A stretch of DNA of 64,000 bases from Streptomyces sp. RPT161 (GCF_027533845.1 NZ_JAPZVN010000011.1:124001-188000), one strand, 5' to 3'; numbered from the stretch's first letter, positions 1 through 8,979 are shown. Numbers and translations: made by a program. Notes: a model not told the origin generated them from the sequence alone.

Positions 1-135
1 GCCCACTGGTACGGCCCGACGAAGGTGCTGGATGTGCACATGGCGGCGCTGCGCCGCAAGTTGGGTGTGCAGGGGCTGGTAGAGACGGTCTACGGGCGCG
101 GTTTCCGCCTTGCTGACGTTGGCCGGTCGACATGA
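1..135 (+). CDS. OmpR/PhoB-family response regulator, C-terminal end (partial)
   Basis: Only the last 44 residues are in the window; the gene begins upstream. The visible part reads through the winged-helix effector domain: the recognition-helix segment with DVHMAALRRKLG, then the wing ending VYGRGFRL, which is the standard end of OmpR/PhoB regulators. The stop overlaps the start of the histidine kinase (ATGA at 132-135), so the two are co-translated as a two-component pair. It probably controls the redox operon that follows, since direct repeats of the kind bound by this family lie upstream of it. Confidence 0.93.
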   Translation, partial: AHWYGPTKVLDVHMAALRRKLGVQGLVETVYGRGFRLADVGRST

Positions 136-1523
136 CCCGTCGCATCGCACTGTCCGTACTCGCGCTGATCACCGTGCTCCTGGTGCTGGCAGTGGTGCCG
201 TTGGGCCTGTTGATGACAGAACGCGAACAGACTTCGTTCCGGGAGCAGTCGGCGGCGATGGCCCGGTCGATCGCCTCCGCCGCCGAGGAGCACCTGTCCG
301 ACCACAAGTCCGAGGCACCCGCGCGGCACCTGCTGGAAGAGGCCCGGCGCAGAGGGGACTGCGCCACCGTCTACGACTCCTTCGGCACAGCGATTCTGTC
401 CACTCCGTGCACCACCGTCGCCGGGGGCGATGCCTCCCAACTGGTGAACTCGGCGCTGGCGCATCCACAGACGCGAACGATCGAGGACGGCCAGCGGCTG
501 ACCACCGTGGTGCCCATCGGTGACGACTCCGACGCCACGGGGGTGGCCGTCCTCAGTCGCTCCACCGATGCGCTGAACGACCACATCATGGTGCTGTGGG
601 GCTGGTCCGCTCTGATCGGCGTCGGTGGTCTGGGTGCCGCAGTGGCGGTGTCGGTATGGCTGGCTCGGTGGGTGAGCCGTCCGTTGCGGGTGGTCGACGT
701 GGCGGCCCGACGGCTTGGGGAGGGGGCGCTCGACGCGCGGGTTCCGGACGCGGGCGGGCCGCCGGAGGTGCGGCGGCTGGCGGCCACGTTCAACACCATG
801 GCCGGTCGCACCGAAGCCCTGGTGCACGGTCACCGCGCTGTCGTCGCCGACGTGTCGCATCAGCTGCGTACCCCGCTCACCGCGCTGCGGTTGCGCCTCG
901 ACCTGCTCACCGCCGACGCGGATGACGAGATGGGAGCCGAACTGTCCAGCGCACAGGAGGAGATCGCCCGGCTGTCCCGGCTGGTGGACGGACTCCTCGC
1001 GGTGGCCCGGGCAGAGCACTCCATTCCGCAGCCGGTGGCCGTCCGGGTTGACGAAGTCGTGGCGGAGCGGGTGGCCGCCTGGGAACCGGTGGCCGACGAA
1101 CGCCGCATTGAACTGATCGCCGACTGCCGACCGGGGCTCAGCGCCTTCGCCGGGGTGGGTGACTTGGAGCAGGTACTCGACAACCTCATCGCCAACGCGC
1201 TCGGCGCGGTCCCCGAAGGCAGTGAGGTACGAATCAATGGCACGACGCACGGCGACACGGTCCGGCTGGCCGTGGTCGACAACGGTCCCGGCATGAGCGC
1301 GACGGCCCGGGCGACCGCCTTCCGCCGCTTCGGCAACCCGGAAGGGCGCGGCACCGGCCTCGGCCTGGCCATCGTGCACCGGCTGGTCACCGCCAACGGC
1401 GGCACCGCCGAGCTGGCTGAGACGCCCGGCGGCGGCCTGACGGTGCTGCTGACCCTGCCAGCGGCCAGCCGCGGGCGCGATCGCGGCACGGACAGCGGCG
1501 GCACCCGCCCCGGCGAGCGCTGA
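132..1523 (+). CDS. Two-component sensor histidine kinase (HAMP, HisKA, HATPase)
   Basis: 463 residues. A first membrane segment at about residues 9-31 is followed by an extracytoplasmic sensor region of about 115 residues and a second membrane segment near 155-178. After a HAMP linker comes the dimerisation box with phospho-acceptor H243 in DVSHQLRTPL, then the ATPase with the N box (LDNLIANAL), the G1 box (VVDNGPGM) and the G2 box (GRGTGLGLAI). It overlaps the response regulator by 4 bp. The extracytoplasmic ligand is not evident from sequence. Its neighbours are redox genes, so an envelope redox or metal signal is a reasonable guess, but that is inference only. Confidence 0.95.
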   Translation: MTRRIALSVLALITVLLVLAVVPLGLLMTEREQTSFREQSAAMARSIASAAEEHLSDHKSEAPARHLLEEARRRGDCATVYDSFGTAILSTPCTTVAGGDASQLVNSALAHPQTRTIEDGQRLTTVVPIGDDSDATGVAVLSRSTDALNDHIMVLWGWSALIGVGGLGAAVAVSVWLARWVSRPLRVVDVAARRLGEGALDARVPDAGGPPEVRRLAATFNTMAGRTEALVHGHRAVVADVSHQLRTPLTALRLRLDLLTADADDEMGAELSSAQEEIARLSRLVDGLLAVARAEHSIPQPVAVRVDEVVAERVAAWEPVADERRIELIADCRPGLSAFAGVGDLEQVLDNLIANALGAVPEGSEVRINGTTHGDTVRLAVVDNGPGMSATARATAFRRFGNPEGRGTGLGLAIVHRLVTANGGTAELAETPGGGLTVLLTLPAASRGRDRGTDSGGTRPGER

Positions 1524-1604: not shown

Positions 1605-1714
1605 GAACCCGACGCCTTTCTCCGCAATCTGGTGCATGGGCATCCACCTGGGATGCCCGCATCGTGACCGACACGTGCGGCACATGCCCCCAGTCAAGGG
1701 GCGAGGAGGAAACC

Positions 1715-2146
1715 ATGTCCCACCCCGATCGCTTCCCGGACTCCGATCACGCCGCGGGCGCCGCCGTACGCCGACGAGACCGGGGCCTGCGGCGCGTCGG
1801 GACCACCACGCGCTGGGTGGCCGCTGCCGCCGCCGCGGGCTCCGTCGCCCTCGGCACCGGATACGCCCAAGCCCTCCCAGGGAAGTCCCCCGCACCTCCG
1901 GGCACCCCATCGCCCGGCGCGTCCACCCCCGCCGCCCAGCCACCCTCCGTGCCGGCCGCATCGCATTCGGCGCCACCCCCAAACCCGACCCGGACCTCCC
2001 ACTGGCCTTCGGCGCCGACCCCTCACGCAACCGTCGCCCGGCCACACACCAACCCAGCCGAGCCGCCAGCGGCGAACCCGCCCACCCCGGCACCGCCCCC
2101 CGCGCCGACGCCGCACCCGTCGCACACCACTTCGGGGGCGTCATGA
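1715..2146 (+). CDS. Small exported Pro/Ala-rich protein with C-terminal SGAS; possible ApbE flavinylation target
   Basis: 143 residues from an ATG with a good Shine-Dalgarno sequence (GAGGAGGA, 1703-1710). The N-terminus is charged (RRRDRGLRR), then a hydrophobic stretch near residues 31-50 serves as signal or membrane anchor. The rest, about residues 55-138, is low-complexity Pro/Ala/Thr/Ser/His with no recognisable fold. The final residues are TTSGAS. ApbE attaches FMN to the Thr/Ser of a motif with core [ST]GA[ST], so the tail matches the core, although the usual upstream Asp is absent (His here). The gene overlaps apbE by ATGA. I do not know a named family. A flavin-carrying role is inference from the tail and the neighbour. 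Confidence 0.75.
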   Translation: MSHPDRFPDSDHAAGAAVRRRDRGLRRVGTTTRWVAAAAAAGSVALGTGYAQALPGKSPAPPGTPSPGASTPAAQPPSVPAASHSAPPPNPTRTSHWPSAPTPHATVARPHTNPAEPPAANPPTPAPPPAPTPHPSHTTSGAS

Positions 2147-3087
2147 CCGTCACCACGAGCGAACCAGTGAAGGTCTGCTTCCCGGCGCTGGGCACGACCG
2201 CGACATTGCTCGTCACGGATCCGAACGCGCTGGCAGCGGCCCGCGCCGTCCTCGACGAGGAACTGGCCGCCGTCGCCGCCGCGTGTAGTCGTTTCCGGCC
2301 CGACTCGGAGCTTTCCCGGGCCAACGCGGTCGCGGGATCCACTGTGCGAATTGGCGCCGTGTTCGCCGAAGCCCTCGAAGTGGCGCTGCGGGCAGCCGAG
2401 TTCACCGACGGTGCCGTCGATCCCACCGTGGGGGCCTCGGTGGTCGCGCTTGGCTACGACCGTACGTTCACTGCGCTGCGGCCACAGGACGTCGGCTCGG
2501 TGCGGCCCGTGCGGCCCGCCGCCGACTGGCGCGCTGTCCAGTGGGATGGCGAATCGCGGCTGCTGCGGGTGCCGCAGGGCACGGCCCTGGATCTGGGTGC
2601 GACGGCCAAGGCGTGGGTGGCCGACCGGGCGGCGCGGCGGGCGGCCGCGACGCTGGGCTGCGGTGTGCTGGTCAACCTCGGCGGGGACGTGGCCACAGGC
2701 GGTCAGGCGCCGCCGGGAGGTTGGCGGATCGCGATCGCCGACGATCACGCCGAGCCCGCCCCGGCGGGCCCGACGGTCAGCATCACCGGCGGTGGACTGG
2801 CCACTTCCGGTACCACAGCGCGCACCTGGCGCCGTGGCGGGCGGGTACTCCATCACATCGTCGACCCGGCGACCGGCGACCTGCCGACCGCGGTGTGGCG
2901 GACGGTGAGCGTCGCCGCCGGCACCTGTACCGACGCCAACACCGCCAGCACCGCGGCGATTGTCCTCGGCGAGCGCGCGGTCAGTTGGCTGCGCGGGACG
3001 GGGCTGCCCGCCCGGCTGGTGACCGTGGACGGCACCGTCGTCCACCTCGGCGGTTGGTCCGACGACGGTACGGGAGGTGACCGATGA
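2143..3087 (+). CDS. apbE: FAD:protein FMN transferase (ApbE family)
   Basis: 314 residues; the ATG at 2143 overlaps the previous stop. ApbE enzymes use FAD and Mg2+ to attach FMN through a phosphodiester to Thr or Ser of exported proteins. Family signatures are present in order: PVDPTVGASV, DLGATAKAW (usually DLGGIAKG), NLGGDVATGG, a SGTTARTW segment, HHIVDPATG, and the metal-site loop CTDANTASTA near the C-terminus (usually AD-STA). No signal peptide is visible, so it is predicted cytoplasmic or exported another way. It sits between the small SGAS protein and a haem membrane protein, overlapping both, which suggests it flavinylates a component of this operon. Confidence 0.93.
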   Translation: MTVTTSEPVKVCFPALGTTATLLVTDPNALAAARAVLDEELAAVAAACSRFRPDSELSRANAVAGSTVRIGAVFAEALEVALRAAEFTDGAVDPTVGASVVALGYDRTFTALRPQDVGSVRPVRPAADWRAVQWDGESRLLRVPQGTALDLGATAKAWVADRAARRAAATLGCGVLVNLGGDVATGGQAPPGGWRIAIADDHAEPAPAGPTVSITGGGLATSGTTARTWRRGGRVLHHIVDPATGDLPTAVWRTVSVAAGTCTDANTASTAAIVLGERAVSWLRGTGLPARLVTVDGTVVHLGGWSDDGTGGDR

Positions 3088-3815
3088 CCGGAATCGTCCA
3101 GCTCGCCGCGAGCGGCCCCAGCCCGCTGTGGTACGCCACCCGCGCCGGCGGCACCGTCGCCCTGCTGTTGCTCACCGCGACCGTCGCGCTCGGCATCGCC
3201 GTCGGCGGGCGATACGAGCCCAGGCGGGGAGCCCGGTTCGAGATCGGCGCGCTGCACCGCAATCTGTCGGTGCTGACCCTGGTCTTCCTGGCACTGCACA
3301 TCGTGACCGCGATCGCCGACACCTTCGTCAACCTCGGTTGGTTGGTGGCGGTGGTGCCGTTCGCCGCCTCCTACCGGACGTTCTGGCTTGGTCTGGGGAC
3401 CGTGGCGTTCGACCTGATGCTCGCCGTCGCGGCCACCAGCGCCGTGCGGCTGCGCCTGGGGCAGCGGCGGTGGAAGGCGGTGCACTGGCTGGGCTACGCC
3501 GCCTGGCCGGTGGCGCTCTTCCACGCCGCCGGGACGGGCACCGACACACGGCTGTCCGTGCAACTGGCCCTGTACGCCGGGTGCGTGGCGGTTGTCGTCG
3601 CCGCCGTGTGGTGGCGGCTGTACCGGGCCGGTCCTGGCCGTCTCGCCGCCCGCCTGTGGGCTGGCGTCGCCGCCGCGGTGGTTCCCGTGGTGCTGGCCAT
3701 GTTCCTGAACTGGGGTCCCACACAGTCCGGTTGGGCGCAACGCGCCGACGGTACGGGTAGCGCGTCTGCGACATCGGCGGCTTCGACCTTCGACAACGGA
3801 AGGAGCGTCGCATGA
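3084..3815 (+). CDS. Ferric-reductase-like b-haem transmembrane protein
   Basis: 243 residues with six or seven hydrophobic segments. Two His pairs stand on neighbouring helices: LHRNLS...ALH (14 residues apart) and VHWLGY...LFH (13 apart), the bis-His arrangement that holds two b haems in ferric-reductase-like transmembrane domains (also MsrQ and NOX proteins). There is no FAD/NAD-binding reductase domain, so electrons must come from a separate protein, presumably the NuoF-like product downstream. The start ATG overlaps the apbE stop (ATGA, 3084-3087), and the end overlaps the next gene by 4 bp. Likely role: moving electrons across the membrane to an outside flavin. Confidence 0.88.
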   Translation: MTGIVQLAASGPSPLWYATRAGGTVALLLLTATVALGIAVGGRYEPRRGARFEIGALHRNLSVLTLVFLALHIVTAIADTFVNLGWLVAVVPFAASYRTFWLGLGTVAFDLMLAVAATSAVRLRLGQRRWKAVHWLGYAAWPVALFHAAGTGTDTRLSVQLALYAGCVAVVVAAVWWRLYRAGPGRLAARLWAGVAAAVVPVVLAMFLNWGPTQSGWAQRADGTGSASATSAASTFDNGRSVA

Positions 3816-5158
3816 CCAGCTCCCCAACCACTCCGGCTTCTCACGTACTTGAACAACCGACCGGTCCTTACGGCACCCGGCTGTTGCAGGGCTGGTTCAC
3901 CACCGGTGGCGCCGCGGACCTGGACGAGCACCTGAACCGGTACGGCCCCCCGCCGCTGTCGCGCGCTACGGGGCGCGGCTCAGTCGCCCCCGTGATCCGC
4001 GCGGTGGAGGACGCGGGGCTCACCGGCCGCGGCGGCGCCGCGTTCCCCACCGGCCGCAAGTTGCGCACCGTCGCCGAAGGCCGCGGCCCCGCCGTGGTCA
4101 TCGCCAACGGCATGGAGAGTGAACCGGCCAGCCACAAGGACGAGACGCTGCTGGATCTCGCCCCGCACCTGGTGCTCGACGGCGCGGCGCTGGCCGCCGT
4201 CGCGGTCGGTGCCGAAGCCGTGCACCTGTGCCTGCCCCGCACCCGCCATCACCAGATACGCGCTCTCGGCGAGGCGGTCGAGCACCGCCGCCAACGCCGG
4301 CTCGATCCGGTGCCGGTGCACGTCCACGGTCTGCCGCACTACTACGTCTCGAGTGAGGAGACCTCGCTGGTGCGCTGGCTGAACGGCGGTGACGCCCGTC
4401 CGTCGGCCACCCCGCCGCGCCCCTTCGAGAAGGGCGTGGACCGGCGTCCCACCCTGGTGGACAACGTCGAAACGCTCGCCCACCTCGCCCTGATCGCCCG
4501 CTACGGCCCTGCATGGTTCCGCGGCGCCGGTCGCCCCGACGCACCGGGCACCACCCTGGTGACGCTCTCCGGCGCCGTCCGCACACCTGGCGTGTACGAG
4601 GTGCCTATGGGCCTGCCGCTGGGCGAGATGCTGGGTACCGCGGGTGGCTCGTCCCAGCCGCTCGGCGCGGTGCTGCTCGGCGGCTTCTTCGGCAGCTGGC
4701 TGCCGACGGACCAGGTGATGTCCGTGCCGTTCACCAAGAACGACCTGGCCGCGCTCGGCGCGGGCCCGGGAGCGGGCGTGCTCGTCGTCCTGCCCCGAAG
4801 CGCCTGTGGACTGGCGGAAACCGCACGGGTGTTGGCCTACCTCGCCGCGAACAGCGCCCGGCAGTGCGGCCCGTGCCGGTTCGGACTCCCCGCGGTCGCC
4901 GAGGACTTCGCGGCGCTGGCACGGGGCCAGGCCGACGCGGACCTGTCGCATCGCCTGGAGCGCCGGGTCGGCCTGCTTGCCGGGCGCGGCGCCTGCCGCC
5001 ACCCGGACGGTGCGTCACGGCTGGCCGCCACCGCGCTGCGCGCCTTCGCCGACGACGTGCGCCACCACCTGTTGTCAGGACCGTGTGCGGCGGCTGGAGG
5101 CGAGCCCGTGCTCCCCGTGCCCGACGCGTCGGTGCCTCAAGACCACGAATGGCGGTGA
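3812..5158 (+). CDS. NuoF-like NADH dehydrogenase subunit (FMN, SLBB and Fe-S domains)
   Basis: 448 residues. The FMN/NADH-binding fold shows GRGGAAFPTGRK, then ANGMESEPASHKDE in place of the NuoF CNADE...EP-T-KDR segment, a SLBB domain (SGAVRTPGVYEVP), and a C-terminal Fe-S region with C352-G-P-C355 and C395. The NuoF N3 cluster normally has CxxCxxC plus a fourth Cys; here the first position is Ala (SARQCGPC), leaving three ligands. No NuoE or NuoG partner is nearby, so this is not complex I. It overlaps both neighbours by 4 bp. Likely job: take electrons from NADH and pass them to the adjacent ferredoxin or haem protein. Confidence 0.87.
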   Translation: MTSSPTTPASHVLEQPTGPYGTRLLQGWFTTGGAADLDEHLNRYGPPPLSRATGRGSVAPVIRAVEDAGLTGRGGAAFPTGRKLRTVAEGRGPAVVIANGMESEPASHKDETLLDLAPHLVLDGAALAAVAVGAEAVHLCLPRTRHHQIRALGEAVEHRRQRRLDPVPVHVHGLPHYYVSSEETSLVRWLNGGDARPSATPPRPFEKGVDRRPTLVDNVETLAHLALIARYGPAWFRGAGRPDAPGTTLVTLSGAVRTPGVYEVPMGLPLGEMLGTAGGSSQPLGAVLLGGFFGSWLPTDQVMSVPFTKNDLAALGAGPGAGVLVVLPRSACGLAETARVLAYLAANSARQCGPCRFGLPAVAEDFAALARGQADADLSHRLERRVGLLAGRGACRHPDGASRLAATALRAFADDVRHHLLSGPCAAAGGEPVLPVPDASVPQDHEWR

Positions 5159-5391
5159 TCGGTGTGTCTGGCCACTCCCTGCGGATCGACCGCATCGAGT
5201 GTGGGGGCCACGGGGTGTGCGCTGAACTGCTCCCGGAGCTCATCGAACTCGACGAGTGGGGCTACCCCATCCTGCGCGACACGCATGTCACGGCCGAGCT
5301 CCTCGGCCATGCCCGACGCGCCGTCGCCGCCTGCCCCGTCCTCGCCATGCGACTGGACCGCGTGGTCCGGCAGAAGTCCGGCCGGACGTGA
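5149..5391 (+). CDS. Small ferredoxin, probably [3Fe-4S] type
   Basis: 80 residues from ATG 5149; the GTG at 5155, which forms a GTGA overlap with the upstream stop, is an equally good start (78 residues). The fold signature is IECGGHGVCAELLPELIELDEWG and later AACPVLAM, the pattern of the short actinobacterial ferredoxins that serve cytochromes P450. Three Cys are visible (C-x5-C ... CP), consistent with a [3Fe-4S] cluster. Here no P450 is adjacent, so the ferredoxin more likely links the NuoF-like protein to the haem membrane protein. It is the last gene of the overlapping operon. Confidence 0.88.
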   Translation: MAVIGVSGHSLRIDRIECGGHGVCAELLPELIELDEWGYPILRDTHVTAELLGHARRAVAACPVLAMRLDRVVRQKSGRT

Positions 5392-5406
5392 ACCATTTCT
5401 TAACCA
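5391..5406 (+). promoter_or_regulatory. 11-bp direct repeat before the second haem protein gene
   Basis: AACCA occurs at 5391-5395 and 5402-5406, spaced 11 bp, inside an unusually AT-rich stretch for this genome. The TTCTTAACC core resembles TTCCTGAACC at 1594-1603. This suggests a second binding site for the same response regulator, but the evidence is a short motif only. Confidence 0.3.
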
Positions 5407-5497
5407 TCGCTCCGGCACACTGCTGCGCACCCATGGCGGAACCCATGCGATCTGACGCTTCGACGCCTCGGAGCCGGACCACTGGAAGGACGGTCGA

Positions 5498-6136
5498 GTG
5501 ACCTCGATCAGCAGCACGGCAACAGTCGATAGGCAGCCCCAACCACCAACGACACGGCATGGCGGTCCCGAAGGGAACGCGCGACTGACCGCAGCCGTCG
5601 GTGCGGTACTGCTGATCCTGTTCGCCGTCCAGGGCGTCACGATCCTCTCCCTGCACCAACTCCTCACCGTCCACTTCTTCGTCGGCCTGCTGCTGATAGG
5701 CCCGGTGGGACTGAAACTCGCGGCCACCGGCTACCGGTTCTTCCGCTACTACACCGGCTCCCCGGCCTACCGGCGCCAAGGCCCTCCCGCGCCGCTGCTG
5801 CGCGTGCTCGGCCCGCTGGTCGTCGCCACCACCGTCGCCGTCCTGACGACGGGTGTCCTGATGGCCCTGCTCGGCAGGCACGCCGGCCCCGTGCCCTTGC
5901 TCCTGCTCCACAAGGCCAGCTTCTTCTGCTGGCTGGCAGTGACCGGCCTCCACGTACTGGCCCACATCTGGCGGTTGCCCCGCCTCATCGGCGCCGACCT
6001 GCGCAACCGCCCCGCGCAGCACGGGGCTTCGGCTCCCGGACGGGGCCGCCGCTGGTCTCTTCTGGCTCTCGCCCTCGGCGCCGGGCTGGCCATCGCACTC
6101 GCCGGAACGCACCTGGCGTCGGGGTGGCGACGTTAG
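5498..6136 (+). CDS. Four-helix membrane protein, probable b-type cytochrome subunit
   Basis: 212 residues from GTG 5498 with Shine-Dalgarno GAAGGA. After a hydrophilic N-terminus there are four or five membrane helices. Histidines lie inside helices where haem ligands are expected: LHQLLTVHFF (6 apart) and LHKASFFCWLAVTGLH followed by LAH (14 and 18 apart). The pattern resembles DUF4405/cytochrome-b561-like proteins, though I cannot name the family with certainty. It lies 106 bp after the ferredoxin, on the same strand and under a similar repeat, so it is probably part of the same electron chain. Confidence 0.75.
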   Translation: MTSISSTATVDRQPQPPTTRHGGPEGNARLTAAVGAVLLILFAVQGVTILSLHQLLTVHFFVGLLLIGPVGLKLAATGYRFFRYYTGSPAYRRQGPPAPLLRVLGPLVVATTVAVLTTGVLMALLGRHAGPVPLLLLHKASFFCWLAVTGLHVLAHIWRLPRLIGADLRNRPAQHGASAPGRGRRWSLLALALGAGLAIALAGTHLASGWRR

Positions 6137-8364: not shown

Positions 8365-8979
8365 ATGCGCATCGACTTCGACCCCGCCGAGCTGGACCGG
8401 AACACCTTCTACCGGCTGCTGACCGCCACTGTCGTGCCCAGGCCGATCGCCTGGGTGTCGACCATGTCGGCGGACGGAACGGCCAACCTCGCCCCGCACT
8501 CGTTCTACACGATCGCCAGTGTGCAGCCGCCCATCGTGCAGTTCACGTCGGTGGGGCGGAAGGACTCGCTGCGCAACGTCGAGGAGACGGGGGAGTTCGT
8601 GGTGAACTTCGCCCCGGAGCAGATGTTCGAGCAGATCAACGCGACCGCGACGGATTTTCCTCGTGGGGTCAGTGAGTTTGATGAGGTCGGTGTGGCACGT
8701 GAGCCCAGTGTGCGGGTGAAGCCGCCGCGGGTCGCCGCGTCTCCGGTGGCGCTGGAGTGCGAGCTGCACAGCACGCTGCGGTTCGGTGACTCCACCGTGG
8801 TGTTCGGACGCGTGGTGCACGCCGCGGTGTCGGAGGCGGTGCTCAGCGACAGGCACCCCGAGGTGCGGGAGATGCGGCCGCTCAGCCGGCTCGGCAAGGA
8901 CGAGTGGGGGACGCTCGGCGACGTCCTGGAGATCTCGCGGATCCGCTACGCGGACTGGCCGGGCCGTATCGACGGCTGA
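8365..8979 (+). CDS. Flavin reductase family protein (FMN-binding split barrel)
   Basis: 204 residues. The split-barrel signature is clear: TATVVPRPIAWVSTMSADG, NLAPHSFYT, PPIVQFTSVG and ETGEFVVNF, then ECELHSTLRFGD...VFGRVVH. Members bind FMN and either reduce flavin with NAD(P)H or act as small oxidoreductases. Full length for the family. A GATACT hexamer at 8352-8357, 7 nt before the ATG, and the absence of a ribosome site suggest a leaderless transcript. The substrate is not predictable. Confidence 0.9.
   Translation: MRIDFDPAELDRNTFYRLLTATVVPRPIAWVSTMSADGTANLAPHSFYTIASVQPPIVQFTSVGRKDSLRNVEETGEFVVNFAPEQMFEQINATATDFPRGVSEFDEVGVAREPSVRVKPPRVAASPVALECELHSTLRFGDSTVVFGRVVHAAVSEAVLSDRHPEVREMRPLSRLGKDEWGTLGDVLEISRIRYADWPGRIDG

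Follow-up and report, generated by a model that had tools for sequence, protein, structure and literature searches.

A candidate flavin carrier without a flavin-binding fold, encoded beside a distinct ApbE branch in actinobacteria

The closest described systems are the MsrQ-like flavinylation clusters, which are mostly actinobacterial and of which 31 include a NuoF-like protein (Meheust et al. 2021, PMC8238504). As described in the main text of that survey, these clusters typically, though not universally, include an FMN_bind gene, and genomes with an orphan apbE imply substrates yet to be identified. The clusters share ApbE, a Ferric_reduct membrane protein and a NuoF-like PF10589 donor with the operon analyzed here, but where FMN_bind carriers are typical there, our operon encodes a disordered protein (the tail protein) that the text of the survey does not describe. 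RnfG and NqrC, carriers of the PF04205 family, resemble the tail protein in their export, their membrane tether, their apbE neighbor and their [ST]GA[ST]-like acceptor; the tail protein differs in lacking the FMN_bind fold, in placing the acceptor at the very C-terminus, and in lacking the leading Asp. Other ApbE substrates, shown or proposed, also do without a classical FMN_bind domain (DUF2271, DUF3570, Flavodoxin_4 and FMN_red; PMC8238504, PMC11334425), but as presented in the main texts all of these are folded domains, whereas the tail protein has none. Huang et al. 2024, who add the folded Flavodoxin_4 and FMN_red substrates, make no mention of actinobacteria under the terms searched. Short acceptor peptides at a protein terminus are likewise found in engineered flavin-tags (Tong et al., reviewed in PMC12052999), and tags down to seven residues perform best at a terminus (PMC12052999); however, these are artificial seven-residue D-x-x-[ST]GA[ST] peptides, whereas the tail is natural, lacks the Asp and is accompanied by a dedicated ApbE branch. 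We found no description of a tail-type substrate in the main texts of the open literature; within that scope, the electron module is already known, and what appears to be new is the carrier without a fold, together with its branch of ApbE.

The window, a stretch of 64,000 nucleotides from Streptomyces sp. RPT161, contains at 1715-5391 on the plus strand a coupled operon encoding the tail protein (1715-2146), ApbE (2143-3087), a haem membrane protein (3084-3815), a NuoF-like protein (3812-5158) and a ferredoxin (5149 or 5155 to 5391). An AGGAGG lies a few bases 5' of the tail-protein ATG, and ATGA overlaps are found at the tail protein/apbE, apbE/haem gene and haem gene/NuoF-like gene junctions; the NuoF-like and ferredoxin genes overlap by 10 bp or 4 bp, depending on the ferredoxin start chosen. 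Gene calls, overlaps and Pfam matches agree with the coordinates and gene descriptions of the initial annotation. After a gap of 107 bp, the ferredoxin gene is followed by a gene for a second His-containing membrane protein (5498-6136, plus strand), present in 18 of 57 loci; the window copy has no Pfam match, and one of its relatives weakly matches cytochrome b561. Upstream of the operon is a sensor histidine kinase (132-1523, plus strand; Pfam HisKA, HAMP and HATPase_c), the response regulator of which sits just beyond the window edge. This regulator matches 49 ORFs in the related loci, the best ones immediately 5' of the kinase, and the kinase and regulator pair accompanies the operon in most relatives.

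The tail protein (143 residues, ending HTTSGAS) consists of an Arg-rich N-terminus, one transmembrane helix and a linker of Pro, Ala, Ser and Thr. It matched no Pfam or NCBIfam family, and Pfam scans of the window protein and 43 scanned members returned no FMN_bind (PF04205), bearing out the earlier claim that an FMN-binding domain of the usual kind is missing; scattered matches of individual members to unrelated families (E 0.003-0.009) are regarded as chance. A hidden FMN_bind or other domain was considered and rejected, as none was found in Pfam or NCBIfam. In 83 of 83 tail proteins, the 25 residues before the helix contain more Lys and Arg than those after it (mean 6.8 versus 0.7), a charge bias that should place the tail outside. 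Ser, Pro, Ala, Thr and Gly abound in the linker, the median length of which is 75 residues (range 34-149). When 43 tail proteins are aligned, the terminal Ser is the sole invariant column; Arg21 and Thr32 of the anchor are almost invariant, and apart from this N-terminal anchor the tail is the best-conserved part of the protein. In the window, the SGAS codons occupy 2132-2143, and the last residue, Ser143, is the proposed FMN acceptor.

A whole-protein family search gave tail-protein matches in 21 of 101 genomes, nearly all of them true homologs with an [ST]G[AG]S end. To avoid circularity, we gathered loci by the haem protein, blind to the tail, from 57 named genome contigs, to which a class-wide search added 40 loci; the small ORF preceding apbE was then picked by a profile of the N-terminus only and, separately, by position and GC3 alone. 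With either selection, [ST]G[AG]S appears precisely at the C-terminal end. We excluded five loci because the GC3 choice had plainly settled on a different ORF or on none; in three of these (L063, L114 and L133), a second candidate ends SGAS, SGGS or TGGS. Conservation of the C-terminal motif beside apbE, on which the initial annotation had staked its interpretation, is what this sampling revealed: among 83 tails (82 loci and the window), the terminal residue is Ser in 82, a Ser or Thr stands three residues before it in 82, and the exact [ST]G[AG]S end is found in 67, counts that do not represent independent events because the sample includes close relatives. As a baseline, 12 of 947 likely coding ORFs of the same loci end in [ST]G[AG]S, a number that may include the tail proteins themselves.

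The remaining tails are SSGS, TSGS, TRGS, SQGS, SGNS, SKAS, TRSS and, in one locus (L113), PSGG. The window SGAS conforms to the [ST]-G-[AG]-[ST] core with a terminal Ser or Thr. Several features of the family count against a flavin carrier as judged from sequence: the leading Asp of D-x-x-[ST]-G-A-[ST] is absent, Gly replaces the Ala of the acceptor motif in 44 of 83 tails, and SSGS, TSGS and TRGS tails lack the middle Gly; the PSGG of L113 counts against it as well. At the place of the leading Asp, His or Gln is commonest, and Asp is not among the six commonest residues there or beside it; in Klebsiella, changing the Asp of the acceptor motif to Ala has minor effects only. Positions upstream of the four-residue tail also show residue preferences. 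The proposal that the last four residues constitute the whole acceptor therefore stands as regards a terminal, acceptor-like tail and falls as regards its strictness: it is a terminal Ser and a Ser or Thr three residues before it that are conserved, a looser signal than the motif first put forward.

Could the SGAS ending be an unselected by-product of the TCATGA overlap with the apbE start in a Ser/Pro-rich frame? The overlap is indeed common to 49 of 82 loci, but the exact motif is retained in 24 of the 33 loci without it, where the terminal Ser is encoded by TCG, TCC, AGC or AGT and thus by both TCN and AGY codons, and the baseline for such endings is low. Moreover, divergent second tail proteins near the operon, unlinked to any apbE start, keep the same ending; one of these is found in the same genome as the window, just upstream of it (C13, about 122944-123201, minus strand), and ends TTSGAS. 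The codon use and the non-overlapping loci led us to reject this explanation, which is vanishingly improbable. A frame artefact was likewise rejected: the apbE frame is open upstream (1636-3087), but the tail frame is conserved as a protein across families. One ApbE may serve several tail proteins. The second tail protein (C13 122944-123201; L028; L032:10944-11291) is encoded past the response regulator and in the opposite orientation, with a sulfite-oxidase-like gene after it; among the related loci, the neighbors of the second copy (sulfite-oxidase-like, EfeO and EfeB) are not conserved with the operon.

The operon ApbE (Pfam ApbE, PF02424, 2.6e-51) matches 13 PDB ApbE sequences. In the Vc ApbE the catalytic triad is Asp285-Ser241-His257, according to the text of a review; Ser222, His238 and residue 266 of the window protein are spaced identically (16 and 28) and line up with their counterparts in solved ApbEs. 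Ser222 and His238 are kept in all 88 tail-linked ApbEs; the GGD and the metal Thr are intact as well. Residue 266, by contrast with the Asp found in 20 of 20 FMN_bind-linked ApbEs, is Asn in 88 of 88 tail-linked ones, which therefore represent a distinct branch of putative transferases; in a tree they group in a clade from which FMN_bind-linked ApbEs are absent (support 0.964). Because the catalytic Asp is Asn throughout this clade, FMN-transferase activity is not guaranteed. The tail might then be a docking or recognition peptide for the ApbE branch or for the haem protein, itself unflavinylated, or the Asn-type branch might transfer something other than FMN or only bind FAD. The Asp to Asn change in every member, the missing canonical Asp of the motif and the loss of its middle Gly in some orders would fit such a role; nevertheless, we consider it rather unlikely, given a terminal hydroxyl residue in 82 of 83 tails, the agreement of the two preceding positions with the known acceptor motif, the intact Ser, His, GGD and metal Thr of the enzyme, and the established use of short terminal tags as flavinylation targets.

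Flavinylation of the tail is also suggested by the distribution of apbE genes. The window genome has two, and the one outside the operon sits beside the genome's sole FMN_bind gene; Pfam finds no gene for an FMN_bind-domain carrier in the operon. Since the only FMN_bind gene pairs with the other apbE, the operon ApbE is left without a classical substrate. In two related species, tail and ApbE decay together: Streptantibioticus rubrisoli (L083) has lost apbE and has a YRAS tail, and in Streptomyces humicola (L099), with a TRSS tail, ApbE has His for Asp182, Gln for Ser222 and has lost Asp241-Pro242. Both retain the haem, NuoF-like and ferredoxin genes, and thus apparently have a version of the system without covalent flavin; the two cases may derive from one shared ancestral event. 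On the other side, Kitasatospora sp. GAS204B combines an SKAS tail with an intact ApbE, which counts against the carrier model. In another genome (G119), apbE genes exist but none adjoins either of its two haem loci, the tails of which read SSGS. These patterns also bear on a structural or wall-anchoring role for the tail protein, with the true ApbE substrate encoded elsewhere. Pro/Ser-rich anchored proteins are common in actinobacteria and apbE can act in trans, but the only FMN_bind protein of the genome is already paired with the other apbE, the C-terminus is conserved far beyond the needs of an anchor, and the tail decays where apbE decays, all of which makes this role very unlikely.

The haem protein is a six-helix, Ferric_reduct/MsrQ-like protein, in which His58, His72, His134 and His147 are invariant in 78 relatives, in line with its first description as a bis-His haem membrane protein. 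Ferric_reduct (PF01794) is matched by 72 of the 78 relatives; the window protein alone falls below the threshold for this family and aligns throughout, with the same fold and His residues. A first AlphaFold model, built with 16 sequences, had a pLDDT of 64.8 and its PDB search was empty; the AF2 model rebuilt with 78 sequences has a pLDDT of 90.9. The nearest solved folds are SpNOX, NOX5 and STEAP4 (Z 12.7, 12.3 and 11.8; rmsd 3.8, 3.5 and 4.8 A over 149-174 residues), with cytochrome b561 ranking level with them, and a Foldseek search with the model returned nothing below E 0.001. As Z under about 13 is not decisive alone for helical proteins, we based the fold call on the ranks at Z 11-13 together with the His spacing and PF01794. 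The His pairs are spaced 14 and 13 residues, as in NOX proteins, and the model points to a six-helix bis-haem NOX/STEAP-like fold. This fold and spacing are shared with NADPH oxidase, STEAP and SpNOX, but the haem protein lacks their fused NAD(P)H/FAD domain, and its donors are the separate NuoF-like protein and ferredoxin.

The NuoF-like protein comprises an NADH/FMN domain, an SLBB domain and an Fe-S region (Pfam Complex1_51K PF01512, 7.3e-33; PF10531; PF10589, 4.4e-14), and thereby represents the NAD(P)H donor module of the MsrQ-like system (PF00175 or NuoF-like PF10589). The NCBIfam nuoF family matches it at 2.5e-61, under the curated cut-off. Cys332, 352, 355, 395 and 425 are kept in at least 90 of 93 members; the first Cys of the cluster motif that is usual for NuoF is missing from the family. 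The ferredoxin is of the single-cluster type, with three Cys (Fer4_15, 5.9e-13).

The reading of the tail protein as a flavin tether is supported, with two refinements (a looser motif and the missing leading Asp), because the tail is conserved, FMN_bind is absent, and tail and ApbE decay jointly. It draws on sequence analysis (gene order, tail conservation, the topology signal, the haem fold, the absence of FMN_bind, the ApbE clade and the joint decay), from which we infer the FMN adduct, the order of export, which way electrons flow and what finally accepts them. The 143-residue protein would be a membrane-tethered carrier without a flavin-binding fold, with its Arg-rich N-terminus inside, one helix spanning the membrane, and a disordered linker ending outside in [ST]-G-[AG]-S. 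The adjacent, apparently cytosolic ApbE would move FMN from FAD onto the last Ser, most likely before export. From the ApbE start to its domain there is a median of 17 residues (49 overlapped loci), and therefore no room for a signal peptide; this counts against the model, in that the tail should be outside. With an ApbE lacking a signal peptide and an outside tail, FMN attachment is simplest in the cytosol, and flavinylation thus probably precedes export, the weakest step of the model.

Electrons would pass from NADH to the NuoF-like protein and its Fe-S center, on to the ferredoxin, via both haems of the NOX/STEAP-like protein to the tethered FMN, and finally to a wall-located or extracellular acceptor (for example, a quinone, ferric iron or an exported enzyme). 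A tethered flavin could instead gather outside electrons and pass them inward over the haems to reduce NAD+. This we judge unlikely, since NuoF-type modules and NOX/STEAP-type haem proteins, for which NAD(P)H is the usual electron source, normally oxidize it; still, nothing in the sequence fixes the direction, and reversal is possible in principle according to the main text of PMC8238504. That the terminal Ser bears FMN within an outward electron path is the likely reading, and the tail protein is very probably an unrecognized carrier that holds flavin on its last residue outside the cell in many actinobacteria. This names a candidate class of ApbE substrate across many Actinomycetes families and predicts the exact residue modified. 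If true, a redox cofactor can work as an electron carrier with a tether alone and no binding domain, flavinylation can precede export, and the family is a source of short natural flavin tags and of ApbEs with different substrate rules.

A third ApbE group, found beside more distant haem proteins, has Glu at the position of the catalytic Asp. The low-complexity proteins upstream of these Glu-type ApbEs end, for example, in KTGAS, TTTAGS, STGASGAKP or TTHAS; as this group also comes with tail-like proteins, substrates of the tail type probably extend beyond the NuoF-type operon. There is about an even chance that Actinobacteria have a class of fold-less carriers, in which FMN sits on the last residue of a disordered, anchored string, is attached in the cytosol by ApbE branches dedicated to this task, with Asp changed to Asn (NuoF-linked) or Glu (the second branch, with similar tails), and is then exported, the flavin sweeping the wall space as a tethered shuttle. 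The Glu-type loci are L153, L154, L156, L158, L161, L164, L165, L179 and L189-L198, and often have Lys for the metal Thr. In other families of the phylum, L182, L183 and L184 encode an N-type ApbE and upstream low-complexity proteins with a different tail containing two Cys (CYTSPSGNVTCY, CYSTPSGNVRCY and CYTTPSGSTVCS, respectively).

Downstream in the window, a gene for a twin-arginine-type exported DUF7405 protein (PF24152; 6239-7804, minus strand) is convergent with the operon, and is close to it in just one relative (L102). A flavin reductase-like protein (PF01613) is encoded near the operon at 8365-8979 on the plus strand.
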